Assembly (NCBI GenBank): GCA_947564305.1 | Contig: CANOBT010000294.1 | Location: forward strand, 1 to 5,315 | Origin: an uncultured Lachnospiraceae bacterium | Lineage (GTDB): Bacteria > Bacillota_A > Clostridia > Lachnospirales > Lachnospiraceae | Direction of reading: 5' to 3' | Length of the DNA: 5,315 nt | Program-made: the position numbers and the translations under genes | Shown: piece by piece, positions 423 through 5,315 of the stretch | Layout of the letters: each line of letters begins with the position of its first letter | Position numbering within the stretch: the first letter of the stretch is position 1 | Notes under the pieces: model-generated | What the model was told of the DNA's origin: nothing | Databases searched by the model: none | Seen by the model: only the letters and a program-made list of their open reading frames with translations

Positions 423-1568
423 CTATCCTGCTTTAACATCAATATCTGGTTTTTCACTCTGCTCTACTTCCATCCCCTCATCTTCTTTACCTTGTTCTGC
501 TTTCATATCCTCATCTTCTTTCTTACCTTGTTCTGCTTCCACACCTGCATCTTCTTCCTTACCTTGTTCTGTCTTCACTTCCTGTTCGGAGTTTTCTTTC
601 TGCTCCTCTTTTTTACCGGAATCTAACTCTTCCTGTTGCCCTGCCTCTCTCCTAAACACTGGCAGTCCTGGCAAAAGCGCCATATCCTCATCTTCTATGG
701 ATTCCTGCTGTTTTTGTTCTTCTTGTACCACATCTTCTTCAATATTTTCAATTTCATAATCAAACGAAATCTGTACTTCTCCATCCTCCCAGACAAGCTC
801 CGGATTGGAATTTAACGTCCCTGTAAAATAGAATGAACCTGTACTGCCGTCGCTTGGCCCTGCAAAACTACCGTTTTCATCATATTTCGATGCCTTTAAG
901 AACAAAACGTACTTATCCGAAATTCCTTCCAATACATTCAATACCCTTTCCGTTTTTTCAACTTCATTCTTCCACACGACATCTACGTTCAACTTTTTTA
1001 TATGTGAATGGTGATCTGAAACCTTCTCTTCTGAAAATTCATACACATCCTCTGTTGAGCGATAATATACTTCTATATTTTTTATTTTAATAGCAACATC
1101 TGTGTTCCCATAATTTTCAACTTTAAAATCATCCGAAAAAATCTGCCCTCTACCACTTAGATTATCGGGATCTAAAAAGGCCTTCGTACCTGTCGGAAAT
1201 GCTACATTATATATACATGATTCTTCCGCTTCGTTTGTTATGTCATCTTCTTCGGTTTTTTCATCTTTTTCAGATTTTTCAGTCTCTTCACCATTTACAG
1301 CTTGTTCAGTTTCCGGCGCTTCTTTTTTCTCAGCAACTTCATCCACTGCATTGTTTTTTTCCGATGATGGGGTTTTTTCTTCTTTATCCAGACCTTTTGC
1401 CTCACCATCTTCTTTTATATCTTCTATATCTTCTGCAGCTTTTACGACCGTACAGTTTGAAAACACGTTATCAACATCAGTAATTCCATTTTTCCAATAT
1501 TCCCCATTCAATTTGTTTATACAGCAAAATAGAATAACTATTAAAAATGACGCCATCTTCCTCTGCAT
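423..1568 (-). CDS. Exported acidic protein with a surface-type domain and repeat tail
   Basis: 381 residues of unknown function. The N-terminus (MQRK, then a hydrophobic stretch at about residues 6-17) looks like a signal peptide or signal anchor, though the cleavage site is unclear. Residues 45-117 are an acidic Glu/Lys/Asp low-complexity arm. Residues 118-275 form a folded, probably beta-sandwich domain that includes YNVAFPTGTKAFLDPD, GSFYFTGTLNSN (244-255) and WEDGEVQISFDYEI (260-273). The rest is an acidic tail with 12-residue repeats of the form (A/T)EQGK(E/K)ED. There is no LPXTG motif or C-terminal membrane anchor. The start at 1568 is supported by GGGAGA 8 bases upstream. The domain shares a motif with the 359-aa protein encoded upstream, so I infer a cell-surface or extracellular role in the same system. 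A hairpin at 1696-1725 separates it from that gene, so it probably has its own promoter. Confidence 0.85.
   Translation of the reverse strand: MQRKMASFLIVILFCCINKLNGEYWKNGITDVDNVFSNCTVVKAAEDIEDIKEDGEAKGLDKEEKTPSSEKNNAVDEVAEKKEAPETEQAVNGEETEKSEKDEKTEEDDITNEAEESCIYNVAFPTGTKAFLDPDNLSGRGQIFSDDFKVENYGNTDVAIKIKNIEVYYRSTEDVYEFSEEKVSDHHSHIKKLNVDVVWKNEVEKTERVLNVLEGISDKYVLFLKASKYDENGSFAGPSDGSTGSFYFTGTLNSNPELVWEDGEVQISFDYEIENIEEDVVQEEQKQQESIEDEDMALLPGLPVFRREAGQQEELDSGKKEEQKENSEQEVKTEQGKEEDAGVEAEQGKKEDEDMKAEQGKEDEGMEVEQSEKPDIDVKAG
465..572 (-). repeat. Three tandem 36-base repeats in coding sequence
   Basis: On the plus strand the anchor TTACCTTGTTCTG recurs at 487, 523 and 559, exactly 36 bases apart. 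The units encode TEQGKEEDAGVE, AEQGKKEDEDMK and AEQGKEDEGMEV (residues 333-368), and a fourth decayed copy (EQSEK) follows. The unit length is a multiple of three, so copy-number change would alter the tail length without a frameshift. Confidence 0.85.
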
Positions 1569-1758: not shown

Positions 1759-2838
1759 TTATTTTACTGTCAATGTTGATATAACGATACGACCGTCAGA
1801 TAACGCAATCACAAGATCCTGCTTATTATCTTTATAGTCTTCGCCAGTTAAAAAGTCTAAACCGCCGTCCGTCTTTGGAATCTTGATTACAGCTTTACCT
1901 GCAGTAGAATAATCCACACTATATGCACCATCTTCCCAGATATAATCTCCGTAAAGTCCAGCCCCATCATTATGAAGGCCAATGGCTGATACGGTAGCTT
2001 CTCCAATGTTTGGAACCTCAATAGACACATCTGCAGCGCTGGTTCCTGATGTAAATTCTGGAGCCGTAGCAATCTTTGGTGTCGTAATTGAGCGAGCCTT
2101 GCTTGCCCTTACCTCGTATGTGATATTTACTGCGATATCATCCTTTTTCCAATCTGCGTTTGCGTTTGCAACACCTGTAACTGCAAAGGAACCTACCGCT
2201 GCTTTTACCTTAGTCGGATCGGATGTAAACTTTGTTGCAGGTGCTGTTGCGGAAGTATCTCCAGTTGGAGCAGCAATATCTACGGAAAGCAATGAACCAT
2301 ATTTTGTAATCGGCACACTGTCAACAGGTGTTGTATAAACTGCCGGTGTCTTTGTTGTAAACTGTGCAAAATTAAGCTTTTTATTTGCATCAAAAGCCAA
2401 AGTCTCACCCGCCTTGGCGTCTATAGCTGCCGGTGTTTGAGCAGTCGTAAGATTCAGGTTAATTTTCTTACTGGTCGAATTCGCATTTTCAGTAAATGTA
2501 TTATACTCCGTGATAACATCACTCGCCTTAGACGTGATCGTCGCCTTAACCGTAGCATTTACTGGAATACCAATGTCTTTCTCGGCATCTACGGATGCGT
2601 TCCAGATATCAATGCTTTCTGATGCAACTGAAAACTTCTTTACATCTGTAGCAGTGCTGTCGGCAAACGGGTTAACCTCGATATTAGCCGCCAGCGGGAC
2701 CTGAATCGTCAGAGCCGGTGAGTAAACATCAAAAGATGTGTCAAGTGTGCCGCTTGGCTCCGATGCCAATGCAGATGCCGGAGCAAACATTGTCATTGTC
2801 AAAGCAACCGCCGTTGCCTTCGTCAATTTAGATTTCAT
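1759..2838 (-). CDS. Exported Ala/Thr-rich surface protein, probably abundant
   Basis: 359 residues with a textbook signal peptide: MKSKLTK, a hydrophobic core, and PASALA with predicted cleavage after Ala25. The mature protein has no cysteine and is rich in Ala, Thr, Ser, Val and Asp, as is usual for secreted beta-sheet proteins. The segment LTIQVPLAANIEVNPF (43-58) and the strand DIGIPVNATVKATI (88-101) open a domain that ends in GSFAVTGVANANADW (216-230) and DDIAVNITYEV (233-243). A separate C-terminal domain follows (about 255-359), with IWEDGAYSVDY and repeated beta-strand patterns. There is no LPXTG, SLH or LysM-like motif that I can see, so the anchoring mode is unknown. The start is fixed by AGGAGGT 10 bases upstream, and the strong site suggests high expression. 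It lies 126 bases after the 167-aa membrane-protein gene and probably works with it. Function unknown; a structural surface or fibre subunit is an inference. Confidence 0.88.
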   Translation of the reverse strand: MKSKLTKATAVALTMTMFAPASALASEPSGTLDTSFDVYSPALTIQVPLAANIEVNPFADSTATDVKKFSVASESIDIWNASVDAEKDIGIPVNATVKATITSKASDVITEYNTFTENANSTSKKINLNLTTAQTPAAIDAKAGETLAFDANKKLNFAQFTTKTPAVYTTPVDSVPITKYGSLLSVDIAAPTGDTSATAPATKFTSDPTKVKAAVGSFAVTGVANANADWKKDDIAVNITYEVRASKARSITTPKIATAPEFTSGTSAADVSIEVPNIGEATVSAIGLHNDGAGLYGDYIWEDGAYSVDYSTAGKAVIKIPKTDGGLDFLTGEDYKDNKQDLVIALSDGRIVISTLTVK

Positions 2839-2964: not shown

Positions 2965-3468
2965 CTACTCTTTCACCACCATGAGACTTACGGTAAATGA
3001 TACAGCACCAAGTTCTTTGTCGGGGTCTTCATCATCTAATATGTGATAAGTACATACAGCGTCATGTACTCCATCCGGCAGCACTTGGTTTAACTCCAGC
3101 TTCTCCAATTTTTTTCCAACCGGCAGAACCGGCGAACTATAAAGCAACGTCTGTTCTTCATTATCAAGGTATACCTCGAAATAGCACTCATAACTATTAC
3201 TTACAGAATTCCCAATCTGGGCATTAGTAGAAACTGCGCTTCCGGAAGGAAACGTCCAAATCATATTCATGTCAGTTGTAAAAGTCGCATTCGCGGCTTT
3301 ATCATCCTTGTCGCCGACTACAAGCCCTTCCGAAACATTTCTCTCTGTCTTTTCCTCAGACTTGGTTAATAGAAAATAGATTACAGCGCCCAAAGCAACA
3401 ACTATCAAGAATAAAATTATAATAAGTATTTTTTTCCACTTTGAATTGTCCTTTTCCTTTTTTTCCAT
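2965..3468 (-). CDS. Single-pass membrane protein with a beta-rich ectodomain
   Basis: 167 residues. A short lysine-rich cytoplasmic tail (1-13) precedes one hydrophobic helix (about 14-34, WKKILIIILFLIVVALGA). The positive-inside rule puts the C-terminus outside. After an acidic linker, residues 61-167 form an Ig-like, strand-rich domain with MNMIWTFPSGSAVSTNAQIG (68-87), YFEVYLDN, LLYSSPVLPVGKKLEKLEL (108-126), the hairpin-like DGVHDAVCTYHILDDEDPD, and a final SFTVSLMVV strand. Cys95 and Cys139 could form a disulfide. I recall similar small ectodomains in clostridial surface-protein loci but know no function. The start has AAGGAG (3475-3480) 6 bases upstream. It is the first gene of a probable pair with the 359-aa exported protein, and could anchor, assemble or receive it at the membrane. 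That role is inferred from context only. Confidence 0.85.
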   Translation of the reverse strand: MEKKEKDNSKWKKILIIILFLIVVALGAVIYFLLTKSEEKTERNVSEGLVVGDKDDKAANATFTTDMNMIWTFPSGSAVSTNAQIGNSVSNSYECYFEVYLDNEEQTLLYSSPVLPVGKKLEKLELNQVLPDGVHDAVCTYHILDDEDPDKELGAVSFTVSLMVVKE

Positions 3469-3480: not shown

Positions 3481-3570
3481 ATTAGTAAGCTATTGTCATC
3501 GTTTTTACTTAAATAAAATACATAAACCTTCTCTGATATCATTACTGATTTTAATAAGGCATATTGGTCA
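3481..3570 (-). promoter_or_regulatory. AT-rich upstream region of the surface genes, possible guide segment
   Basis: This stretch lies between the presumed end of the TnpB element and the ribosome binding site of the 167-aa gene. It is AT-rich and should hold the promoter of the two-gene unit unless transcription comes from tnpB. I find no well-spaced -35/-10 pair. If the 3571-3582 hairpin ends the RNA scaffold, the first bases here on the minus strand (TGACCAATATGCCTTATTAA, 3551-3570) would be the guide. The boundary is not certain. Confidence 0.3.
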
Positions 3571-3993
3571 CTCTCCTAAGAGAATGATGCGAATCTCTTC
3601 GCTTCGCTCCTCGCTACATCATGACGTATTATCTGAGCTTATCCGATACGAACAGTTCTGCATTCTCTGTCCTACATTTACACATTCCATCTGCACTCAT
3701 CCATCCTCATGTTCACAAGGTCCTGGCATATCCAATCCGCAGACTCCAAGGAATCCCCCTTTTACCCGCCTTCTAATGCCGTTTTAATATGTATTGATGC
3801 ATTACCTCTAACCCAATACACTTCTTTTTATATAGCAGGCTTATCCTGCCTTATCATGAACCTACCTCTTAGTCCTTTGGAACCATCCGGCTCCTTTCGG
3901 TAAAACCTCGGCTCATCACCGCTGCTTATCTAAATGGCTGTTCTTATGATCTTGTTTCCTATTCTGACAAATTAGAGCTGCCTCATAATCCGG
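3571..3993 (-). ncRNA. Putative omega/guide RNA scaffold downstream of tnpB
   Basis: About 420 bases after the tnpB stop contain no credible gene on either strand but several potential hairpins on the minus strand: GGT-TTT-ACC (3899-3907), TCC-AAA-GGA (3873-3881), a 5-bp GCAGG/CCTGC stem with a 5-base loop (3835-3849), TAATGC/GCATTA enclosing AATA/TATT (3774-3804), CGTAT/ATACG (3625-3650), a long bulged hairpin (3584-3622) and CTCT/AGAG (3571-3582). Known TnpB proteins bind an RNA made from the 3' end of tnpB and the transposon right end, with the guide just beyond that end. Position, strand and hairpin content fit this. The length is at the long end for such RNAs, and the exact 5' and 3' ends are guesses. 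Confidence 0.5.
3584..3622 (-). repeat. Imperfect palindrome at the presumed element right end
   Basis: ATGAT+GCGA pairs with TCGC+ATCAT (9 bp), with a TAC bulge on one side and an 18-base loop containing CTTCGCTTCGCTCC. Subterminal imperfect hairpins of this kind mark IS200/IS605 ends, where TnpA binds, and they also form the 3' stem of the guide RNA. A 4-bp hairpin (3571-3582) follows at once. Confidence 0.6.
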
Positions 3994-3996
3994 CTA
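3916..3996 (-). other. In-frame continuation after the tnpB stop codon
   Basis: Beyond the TAG (3994-3996) the same frame continues for 25 codons, starting PDYEAALICQNRK, to TGA at 3916-3918. The wording looks protein-like and joins smoothly to the preceding GQGDGVLY. The TAG is one base from CAG (Gln). The stop may be a recent nonsense change that removed a C-terminal tail, or the natural end of the family. Confidence 0.35.
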
Positions 3997-5315
3997 ATAT
4001 AGCACCCCATCACCCTGCCCTCGCTTCTTTACATTGCGGGCAGTATTGGTCTTTTCTTCTTCCTGATATCCGCAAGCTGAACAAGAGAACACTCCTGCTG
4101 TCTTCGTTCCAAGCACACCGCACATACTGCACTCGTTACTAATATTCTTTCCAAGTACTTCCAGAATCTCAATTGACTGTTCTTTACATTTCTGTTCCAA
4201 ACGCTTCCTTATATATCCTCTCTGCCATTGAGCAATGGAATAGTTAATCTTCTTATTGTGTCCACCGGCCTGCGGCTTTGGTAGTTTCACAACATAGATA
4301 ACCTTAGGCTTTTCCTCTGCAAGAAAATAATTCAATTCGTGGTTAATATAACTATGAAGTCCTTCTTCTAACCGCCGCTTCTTTGCACAATATTTCTTAC
4401 GTCCCGGATTATCTCCCTTATTTCTTCTATAACTACTTGCCTGCTCCCTCACCCAATCCGAATATCCGGTCTGATATTTACCTAATTCCGTTCCATATCG
4501 ATGCCCTTCGTCTGTTGTCAGCATTGTATTGAAACCAACCGCCACCCCCACCTGATTTACATAATCCATATGACGTCGGACTGCAACATTTACCGGAACC
4601 TTGAGTTCAATGCGATTCTCCTTGGGATATAATTTCATTCGCAGCTGGCACTGATATTGGTTATTGTCTGTCAGCGGTATAAAAATCCGTTTACGCTTCT
4701 CTTTAATGGAAATATAGATTCCACCGTCGGCATAACGGTATGCTCGTTCCGCTATGGAAAATACATTCGCCGTGTCTGTATGAAGCTTTACATGATACTT
4801 TCGCACCTGTCTACATAAATATCGATGCATTTTTTCGCTATCCACTTCTCCAGCCAACTCACAGTATTGTCTGTTTACCTTTGCAGCCAACTCAATCGGC
4901 TTTTGGTTCAATACTGCCTCAAATGCATTATTTACCTTTAATATGAAGCGAAGATAATGTTTTTCTTCTTCCTTGAAGCTTTCATTCTTATTCACCAGCT
5001 TTACAAGCTTCGTTTTTGTCCTTGTCCATTGACTCTTGATATCTGCCAGTGCGTCAAAGACTGCAAGATAGAAGTAAACAGCCGGCAATCCCAATGTTTC
5101 CCGGTATCCGCTTGCGGTCATCTCATTTTGCACGGTATATCCCGGATAAATCTTTGATAGGCTTCCTATCCCGCCAAACCTGTCATACACATAGTTTTTG
5201 ACCTTCCTGTAATCCTCAGCGATATCCAGAAGCTTATGCATATCTGTATCGCTGACTGATTCTTTATTGTCACTAGCAATTATGTATTTATTTTTTAATA
5301 TTTTAGCTTCATCAA
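3994..5315 (-). CDS. tnpB: TnpB-family protein with all RuvC catalytic residues lost, N-terminus beyond the window
   Basis: TnpB is an RNA-guided DNA nuclease of IS200/IS605 elements. Numbered from the Met at 5241, this protein has an N-terminal helical/WED-like half (1-225), a split RuvC fold and a zinc ribbon with Cys371, Cys374, Cys387 and Cys390. RuvC-I reads VGVAVGFNTMLTTDEG (231-246), with Ala234 where GIDLG has Asp. RuvC-II reads VIYVVKLP (314-321), with Val318 where Glu is expected. RuvC-III reads EEEKTNTARNV (394-404), with Lys397 in place of the Asp of DxNAAxN. The flanking motifs are otherwise well kept, so the alignment is secure and a nuclease-dead protein is predicted. The Met at 5241 has no Shine-Dalgarno sequence, and the frame stays open to base 5315, so translation probably starts upstream. 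It ends at TAG 3994-3996. DNA binding without cleavage, as in TldR proteins, is the likely activity if it is functional. Confidence 0.88.
   Translation of the reverse strand, partial: DEAKILKNKYIIASDNKESVSDTDMHKLLDIAEDYRKVKNYVYDRFGGIGSLSKIYPGYTVQNEMTASGYRETLGLPAVYFYLAVFDALADIKSQWTRTKTKLVKLVNKNESFKEEEKHYLRFILKVNNAFEAVLNQKPIELAAKVNRQYCELAGEVDSEKMHRYLCRQVRKYHVKLHTDTANVFSIAERAYRYADGGIYISIKEKRKRIFIPLTDNNQYQCQLRMKLYPKENRIELKVPVNVAVRRHMDYVNQVGVAVGFNTMLTTDEGHRYGTELGKYQTGYSDWVREQASSYRRNKGDNPGRKKYCAKKRRLEEGLHSYINHELNYFLAEEKPKVIYVVKLPKPQAGGHNKKINYSIAQWQRGYIRKRLEQKCKEQSIEILEVLGKNISNECSMCGVLGTKTAGVFSCSACGYQEEEKTNTARNVKKRGQGDGVLY

Follow-up and report, generated by a model that had tools for sequence, protein, structure and literature searches.

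The window analysed here (the whole 5,315-nt stretch, from an uncultured Lachnospiraceae bacterium) carries on its minus strand a gene for a nuclease-dead TnpB (3994..5315, open frame 3994-5313), the 5' end of which lies beyond the window edge. The open frame encodes 439 aa, or 415 aa when counted from the ATG present in the window; the first-pass annotation had described an intact frame of more than 400 codons. The frame scored 34.9 bits against the Pfam family Cas12f1-like_TNB (cut-off 26.3) and 48.7 against NCBIfam guided_TnpB, under the cut-off of 100. All three acids of the RuvC site are replaced, as read from the codons and from an alignment with reference TnpBs (alignment A3): the RuvC-I Asp by A258 (GCG, 4540-4542, minus strand), the RuvC-II Glu by V342 (GTG, 4288-4290, minus strand) and the RuvC-III Asp by K421 (AAG, 4051-4053, minus strand). 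These residues of the open frame are A234, V318 and K397 when numbered from the internal ATG. In two of the four reference TnpBs (Halobellus and Salmonella phage Sen-NF), the acids of the motifs G(I/V)DLG (D), EDL (E) and DxNAAxN (D) aligned to A258, V342 and K421. In the same alignment, two Thermus IS607-type TnpBs (L198 and L200) have D, E and Q at the three RuvC positions, and since both carry Q at the last one, the third RuvC acid is not universal among TnpBs. Where an active nuclease reads D/E/D, the window reads A/V/K. The three codons were thus correctly placed in the first-pass annotation, and A, V and K stand opposite acids in those two of the four aligned TnpBs; the four zinc-ribbon cysteines that it reported as kept are invariant across 58 sequences.

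Of the 5315 bases of the window, 5270 are identical to locus L001, from Lachnospiraceae bacterium B50_50_CF_H. The final 45 bases (5271-5315) differ from L001, the break falling within the 5' part of the gene for the dead TnpB, and were absent from the five genomes searched; this divergent end is either an assembly chimera or a real recombination. One protein, P0002, is nearly the same as that of the window and differs mainly in its N-terminal part.

Homologues were collected in three ways. A first protein search gave 1736 proteins, of which the 120 listed were aligned with the window frame; none of these 121 sequences has an acid at any of the three RuvC positions (A in 117 and S in 4; V in 117, M in 2, I in 1 and A in 1; K in 121). 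A genome scan confirmed 206 stretches, and among the best 80 of these 206 loci and the window, again, 81 of 81 sequences are without an acid at the three positions (A in 58 and S in 23; V in 56, A in 11, P in 7, I in 4 and M, T and Q in 1 each; K in 79 and R in 2). For a second subclade, seeded with L105 (48% identity), the 120 matches listed of 1409 all lack the acids (A in 119 and S in 1; P in 120; R in 114, K in 4, S in 1 and G in 1). L105 (1501-2787), L090 and L094 belong to this second dead subclade and read A/P/R at the three positions. The ratio dN/dS, calculated for 50 pairs of moderate divergence, had a median of 0.12 and a maximum of 0.23. The first-pass annotation had proposed asking whether close homologues are non-acidic at the same three positions with dN/dS below 1; acids were absent there in all three collections, and dN/dS was below 1 in all 50 pairs. 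In conclusion, the loss of the acids is a family trait, clade-wide rather than confined to one dead copy, and the examined clade is under purifying selection. All three sets also agree with the description of a TldR as a TnpB homologue with an inactivated RuvC. Given the other acids that are conserved in the protein (E64, D216, E326 and E334 in 81 of 81 sequences, E or D at 420 in 77 of 81), a relocated catalytic acid is conceivable but, from the alignment, unlikely.

Counting the distant subclade, full-length copies without an internal stop numbered 7, 3, 4, 7 and 2 in five genomes; a fragment of the gene was additionally present in two of the five. Judging from record titles, the loci come from Lachnospiraceae and other Clostridia, many of them presumably from mouse gut. 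Viral contigs and phage records yielded no close relatives, and plasmids only distant ones. In L060 (3909-5200), the upstream region and the N-terminal coding part are duplicated as a 432-nt inverted and a 300-nt direct copy, and L003 and L051 carry N-terminal fragments of the gene in their upstream regions.

Three genes follow the dead TnpB gene in the window, all on the minus strand: a small protein with an N-terminal membrane segment (2965..3468), a protein judged by eye to be a surface protein with a signal-peptide-like start (1759..2838) and a Glu/Lys-rich protein (423..1568). Their families neighbour the dead TnpB gene in 27, 5 and 3 of 80 loci, respectively; the first gave nothing above the Pfam cut-off, the second no Pfam or NCBIfam match and the third no curated family match. 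In these 80 loci, recurrent downstream neighbour families share the strand of the dead TnpB gene. They comprise a 485-aa protein (41/80 loci, e.g. L043 1795-3249; no Pfam match for the one representative scanned), a signal-peptide-like protein family (19/80), DegT-type aminotransferases (15/80), a cytidylyltransferase-oxidoreductase fusion (9/80) and family-2 glycosyltransferases (6/80), together with epimerase-like proteins, named by eye, that are mostly but not always downstream (9/80). Upstream are found a tyrosine recombinase family (10/80 loci), a serine recombinase family (5/80) and a family of 541-aa proteins (12/80). Five of the ten neighbour-family representatives scanned against Pfam were matched, and neither csrA nor flagellin was among these ten families. 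On this gene order, dead TnpB genes head predicted surface-protein or polysaccharide operons in Lachnospiraceae and their relatives.

A pair of inverted repeats, each arm nearly palindromic, lies upstream of the start codon (in L001 at 4488-4517 and 4634-4663, outside the window). With at least 20 of 24 positions paired and 70-170 nt between the arms, such pairs were found in 51 of 75 loci, compared with none in 75 shuffled sequences and none in 150 windows taken elsewhere in these loci. The start-to-start distance was 123-155 nt in 47 loci and 193-194 nt in four, and these four may be other repeats. All five serine-recombinase loci have a repeat pair. It was present in none of the ten tyrosine-recombinase loci (L026, L027, L055, L059, L066, L068, L070, L071, L073 and L078), which possibly use another switching mode. 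The segments between the repeats are homologous and occur in both orientations: of 50 that could be oriented, 41 are L001-like and 9 inverted, with 2 of 548 pairs inconsistent. Within one genome, L002 and L007 are mutually inverted, with 96.5% identity over 115 nt. We searched these segments for the promoter pattern TTG[AGC]CN-17 nt-TANNAT; where detected, it faced away from the gene in every L001-like locus (27 of 27) and toward it in every inverted one (4 of 4), and it was not detected in 19 of the 50 oriented segments. As the promoter mostly faces away from the gene, most assembled copies would be OFF. The two marks of an inverton, a promoter flanked by inverted repeats and its occurrence either way round, are thus present in the relatives and in L001, at a position beyond the window.

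Conservation between loci extends beyond the stop codon of the dead TnpB gene. In the window this region is a putative guide-RNA scaffold (3563..3993, minus strand), with landmarks on the same strand at 3898-3905, 3853-3860, 3769-3781, 3601-3611, 3582-3590 and 3563-3571 (GTGACCAAT). RNAalifold, applied to 27 loci of mostly short spacing (the window copy being outside this alignment), predicted 47 pairs, 28 of them with compensatory change, and an energy of -40.6 kcal/mol, compared with -2.8 (sd 2.1, minimum -8.2) in 30 column shuffles. Rfam gave a single match to the downstream RNA, below threshold. The region ends in GATGACCAAT followed by RTRYYTTATT in 75 of 80 loci (at most 4 mismatches), 203-699 nt past the stop codon. 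In the window, the 10 nt that follow the scaffold are ATGCCTTATT (3553..3562, minus strand, class GCC), the first part of a putative guide; the final stretch is read as a guide because of its position, its 5' neighbour and the operator-like sites described below. The guide core is nearly invariant over the 75 loci, and guide classes switch about 30 times on a tree of 77 dead TnpBs. In L009 and L023, tandem hairpin repeats of about 57 nt past the stop codon lengthen the RNA region.

With at most 2 mismatches, the RNA end motif gave 22 matches in five genomes and none in the reversed control; two weak matches in genome G002 were away from any dead TnpB. The motif was missing at one distant dead-TnpB copy in G001 and at two in G002, and none of the first type was found beside L105, L090 and L094 of the second subclade. 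It was present in 36 of 37 further genomes (reversed control 0) and in 9 of 12 genomes of the genus; in a wider sampling it was found in 2 of 61 genomes, with likewise 2 matches in the control. The first-pass annotation had read the gene as one that lost catalysis without decay, retained for RNA-guided binding in the manner of TldR. Such a TldR-like function would fit, because the clade lacks the three acids, is under purifying selection and is followed directly by a covarying RNA whose 3' end is guide-like.

Sequences resembling the guide-like end also occur as operator-like sites. In the window, GGTTTAT followed by GTATTTTATT (a TAM-like part and class ATT; 3512..3528, minus strand) is a candidate operator that precedes the next start codon by 44 nt. 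We defined a strict site as TWTAT followed by RTRYYTTATT, the class being given by positions 3-5. There were 19 exact matches in 75 loci, of which 14 (in 12 loci) followed the guide on its own strand at a distance of 45-141 nt, compared with none for the reversed pattern. The rule leaves most loci without a site, and polysaccharide-type loci have none behind the guide. In a wider sampling, the combination of guide and site was found in 2 of 397 and 1 of 61 genomes. A loose genome-wide scan (2 mismatches) gave no enrichment over the reversed control, exact sites being read in three of five genomes. The strict scan of the sister genome G004 found 4 sites genome-wide and 4 in the reversed control; because it is at control level there, the strict site is remarkable only through its position behind the RNA. 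Two of the four G004 sites precede a repressor-like gene, and were treated as chance. Within the 485-aa gene, the VYVPYF codons contain RTNCCNTATT, which at first resembled a target, a coding 'operator', in polysaccharide loci; Tyr was encoded by TAT in 28/33 and 27/33 cases compared with 80% overall, and CCT was somewhat raised (14/32). This candidate was dropped because codon use there is close to that of the whole gene.

The relation between guides and sites was tested with 91 loci that could be assigned to a genome (for 9 of these, only the guide was available), which contain 17 sites in 15 loci, before surface genes. The locus's own guide class was never found at the site (0/17; 3.8-4.2 expected; P 0.0085 when all loci were shuffled and 0.0044 within site-bearing genomes only). 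Exact identity to the own 10 nt was likewise absent (0/17; 1.7-1.9 expected), which is not significant (P 0.12-0.15). Seven of the 17 sites equalled another guide of the same genome over 10 nt (4.6-4.9 expected; P 0.11-0.13) and nine did so by class (7.8-8.5 expected; P 0.33-0.51), neither being significant. Taken jointly, self-avoidance and non-self matching gave P 0.018 for 10 nt and P 0.002-0.003 for the class. These permutations ignore kinship; when lineages were collapsed by hand to ten, guide class and site class were associated (P 0.002), with P 0.08 for self-avoidance alone. The strict rule was chosen after looser tests and then applied to all loci, an order that is post hoc; under looser rules the mean self mismatch gave P 0.01-0.07 (23 sites), and 0 self and 6 non-self exact matches gave P 0.10-0.21 (24 sites). 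The exact non-self pairs are the L009 site with the L030/L032 guides, the L030 and L032 sites with the L023/L074 guides, the L006 site with the L011/L020/L025 guides, the L003 site with the L004 guide, the L013 site with a second RNA end in G406 and the L203 site with the L159 guide. The window site (class ATT) agrees with the L010 guide in class and differs from it in the first base. No exact TAM-joined site for the window guide was present in G004, G402 or G405.

From these sequence features, we lean towards the view that a domesticated nuclease-dead TnpB and its own guide RNA form an RNA-guided DNA binder heading a phase-variable surface operon. The promoter between the inverted repeats would flip between ON and OFF, for which the comparison of relatives, outside the window, provides strong evidence. 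In the ON state, gene order and strand suggest that a single transcript would carry the dead TnpB, the guide RNA and the surface genes. The complex is predicted to bind the TAM and RTRYYTTATT between the RNA and the surface genes at other loci of the genome and would thereby block their transcription. It would spare its own locus, where the site class differs from the own guide class, with moderate statistical support, and surface structures would be displayed one at a time or in a ranked manner. A further, tentative proposal, which we hold possible at somewhat less than even chances, is RNA-guided mutual exclusion: several phase-variable operons per genome, each with a dead TnpB and a guide, in which guide classes silence operons with matching leaders and the own site is kept mismatched. 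Judging from the observed sites, silencing would run from GCC guides to ATC loci, from ATC guides to ATT loci and from ATT guides to ATGCC loci, of which the window is an example; these relations among GCC, ATC and ATT would form a ranking or even a cycle.

The site studied always lies within the leader of its own operon, exact partners are missing for most loci, and exact matches to non-self guides, taken by themselves, do not exceed chance (7/17). These observations would suit an action in cis: the dead TnpB and the RNA would attenuate or autoregulate the operon that encodes them, and the operator-like sites, instead of being targets in rival operons, would be elements of the leader or promoter that are related to the RNA end. 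The own class is never found at the site, however (P 0.004-0.009), and the guide-like RNA, being of the same sense as the site, could pair with DNA only and not with the leader transcript; we consider cis action rather unlikely.

The near-invariance of the guide core over 75 loci, most of which have no operator, might instead indicate a TldR-like repressor whose target or targets lie elsewhere (a single fixed gene of the chromosome, or more than one), with incidental leader sites and with the flipping promoter and surface genes as described. The window guide has no exact target among the surface loci of the sister genome, and target sites are placed inside ORFs by Walker 2026 (PMC13418256). 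No better target was found, the strict sites elsewhere in G004 being at control level and codon use at the match within the 485-aa gene showing no constraint, so that this explanation appears quite improbable. The recombinase families upstream (tyrosine in 10 loci, serine in 5), the multi-copy nature of the family and the N-terminal fragments and inverted duplicates of a few loci could also point to a part of a recombination or mobile unit, an invertase accessory or a decayed transposon protein, that regulates nothing. We regard this as highly improbable in view of the dN/dS of 0.12, the conserved RNA with its guide-like end, the operon order on one strand and the absence of close relatives from viral contigs and phage records, with only distant ones on plasmids.

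RNA-guided cross-silencing has its closest precedent in csrA-tldR loci, reported to contain hin, promoter inversions of about 120 bp and predicted cross-targeting of flagellin genes (Walker 2026, PMC13418256). As in the clade studied here, these are dead TnpBs of gut bacteria with a guide RNA downstream (putative in our case), an invertase gene (in our case a candidate, the serine recombinase family of 5 loci), promoter inversions upstream and several loci per genome with predicted cross-targeting. Their cargo is flagellin genes and csrA, with sites inside fliC ORFs and experimental RIP/ChIP data (PMC13418256), whereas the present clade, known from sequence, has adhesin-like and polysaccharide operons, a clade-wide guide core and leader sites that avoid the own class. 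The main text of Walker 2026 contains neither Lachnospir-, Clostridi- nor polysaccharide. The phage flagellin (FR-phi) TldR, originally reported by Wiegand et al. (2024) and described in PMC13418256, is also a nuclease-dead TnpB; it represses the host flagellin promoter by RNA-guided binding, a mode of action that we propose for the present clade, but that description does not mention a flippable promoter. The type V-M effector Cas12m2 (PMC10442227) has a non-canonical RuvC and silences by binding, without dsDNA cutting, but belongs to a CRISPR system. In Bacteroides capsule control (PMC7315117), each switchable surface operon has a leader gene and promoter inversion, as here, and UpxZ represses non-adjacent capsule operons, in parallel with the cross-silencing we propose; UpxY/UpxZ act by protein antitermination and its inhibition, with no RNA guide, and are a functional parallel, not a relative. 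Among the keyword matches listed (titles and abstract starts), there was no publication on a dead-TnpB surface-operon clade, which may be named in Wiegand 2024 or Altae-Tran 2023. TldR is already known; the clade described here follows the logic of csrA-tldR, with a different cargo and a guide core common to the whole clade.

Our best reading is that the clade may carry out TldR-like, RNA-guided cross-silencing of phase-variable surface operons. The guide and the site are short and easily swapped, so that the idea is directly testable with reporters. If it is true, gut commensals choose their surface coat through a natural network that resembles CRISPRi and has a small recognition code and self-sparing; TldR biology would reach beyond flagellin to adhesins and polysaccharides, and the system would be an RNA-guided counterpart of the Bacteroides UpxY/UpxZ logic.
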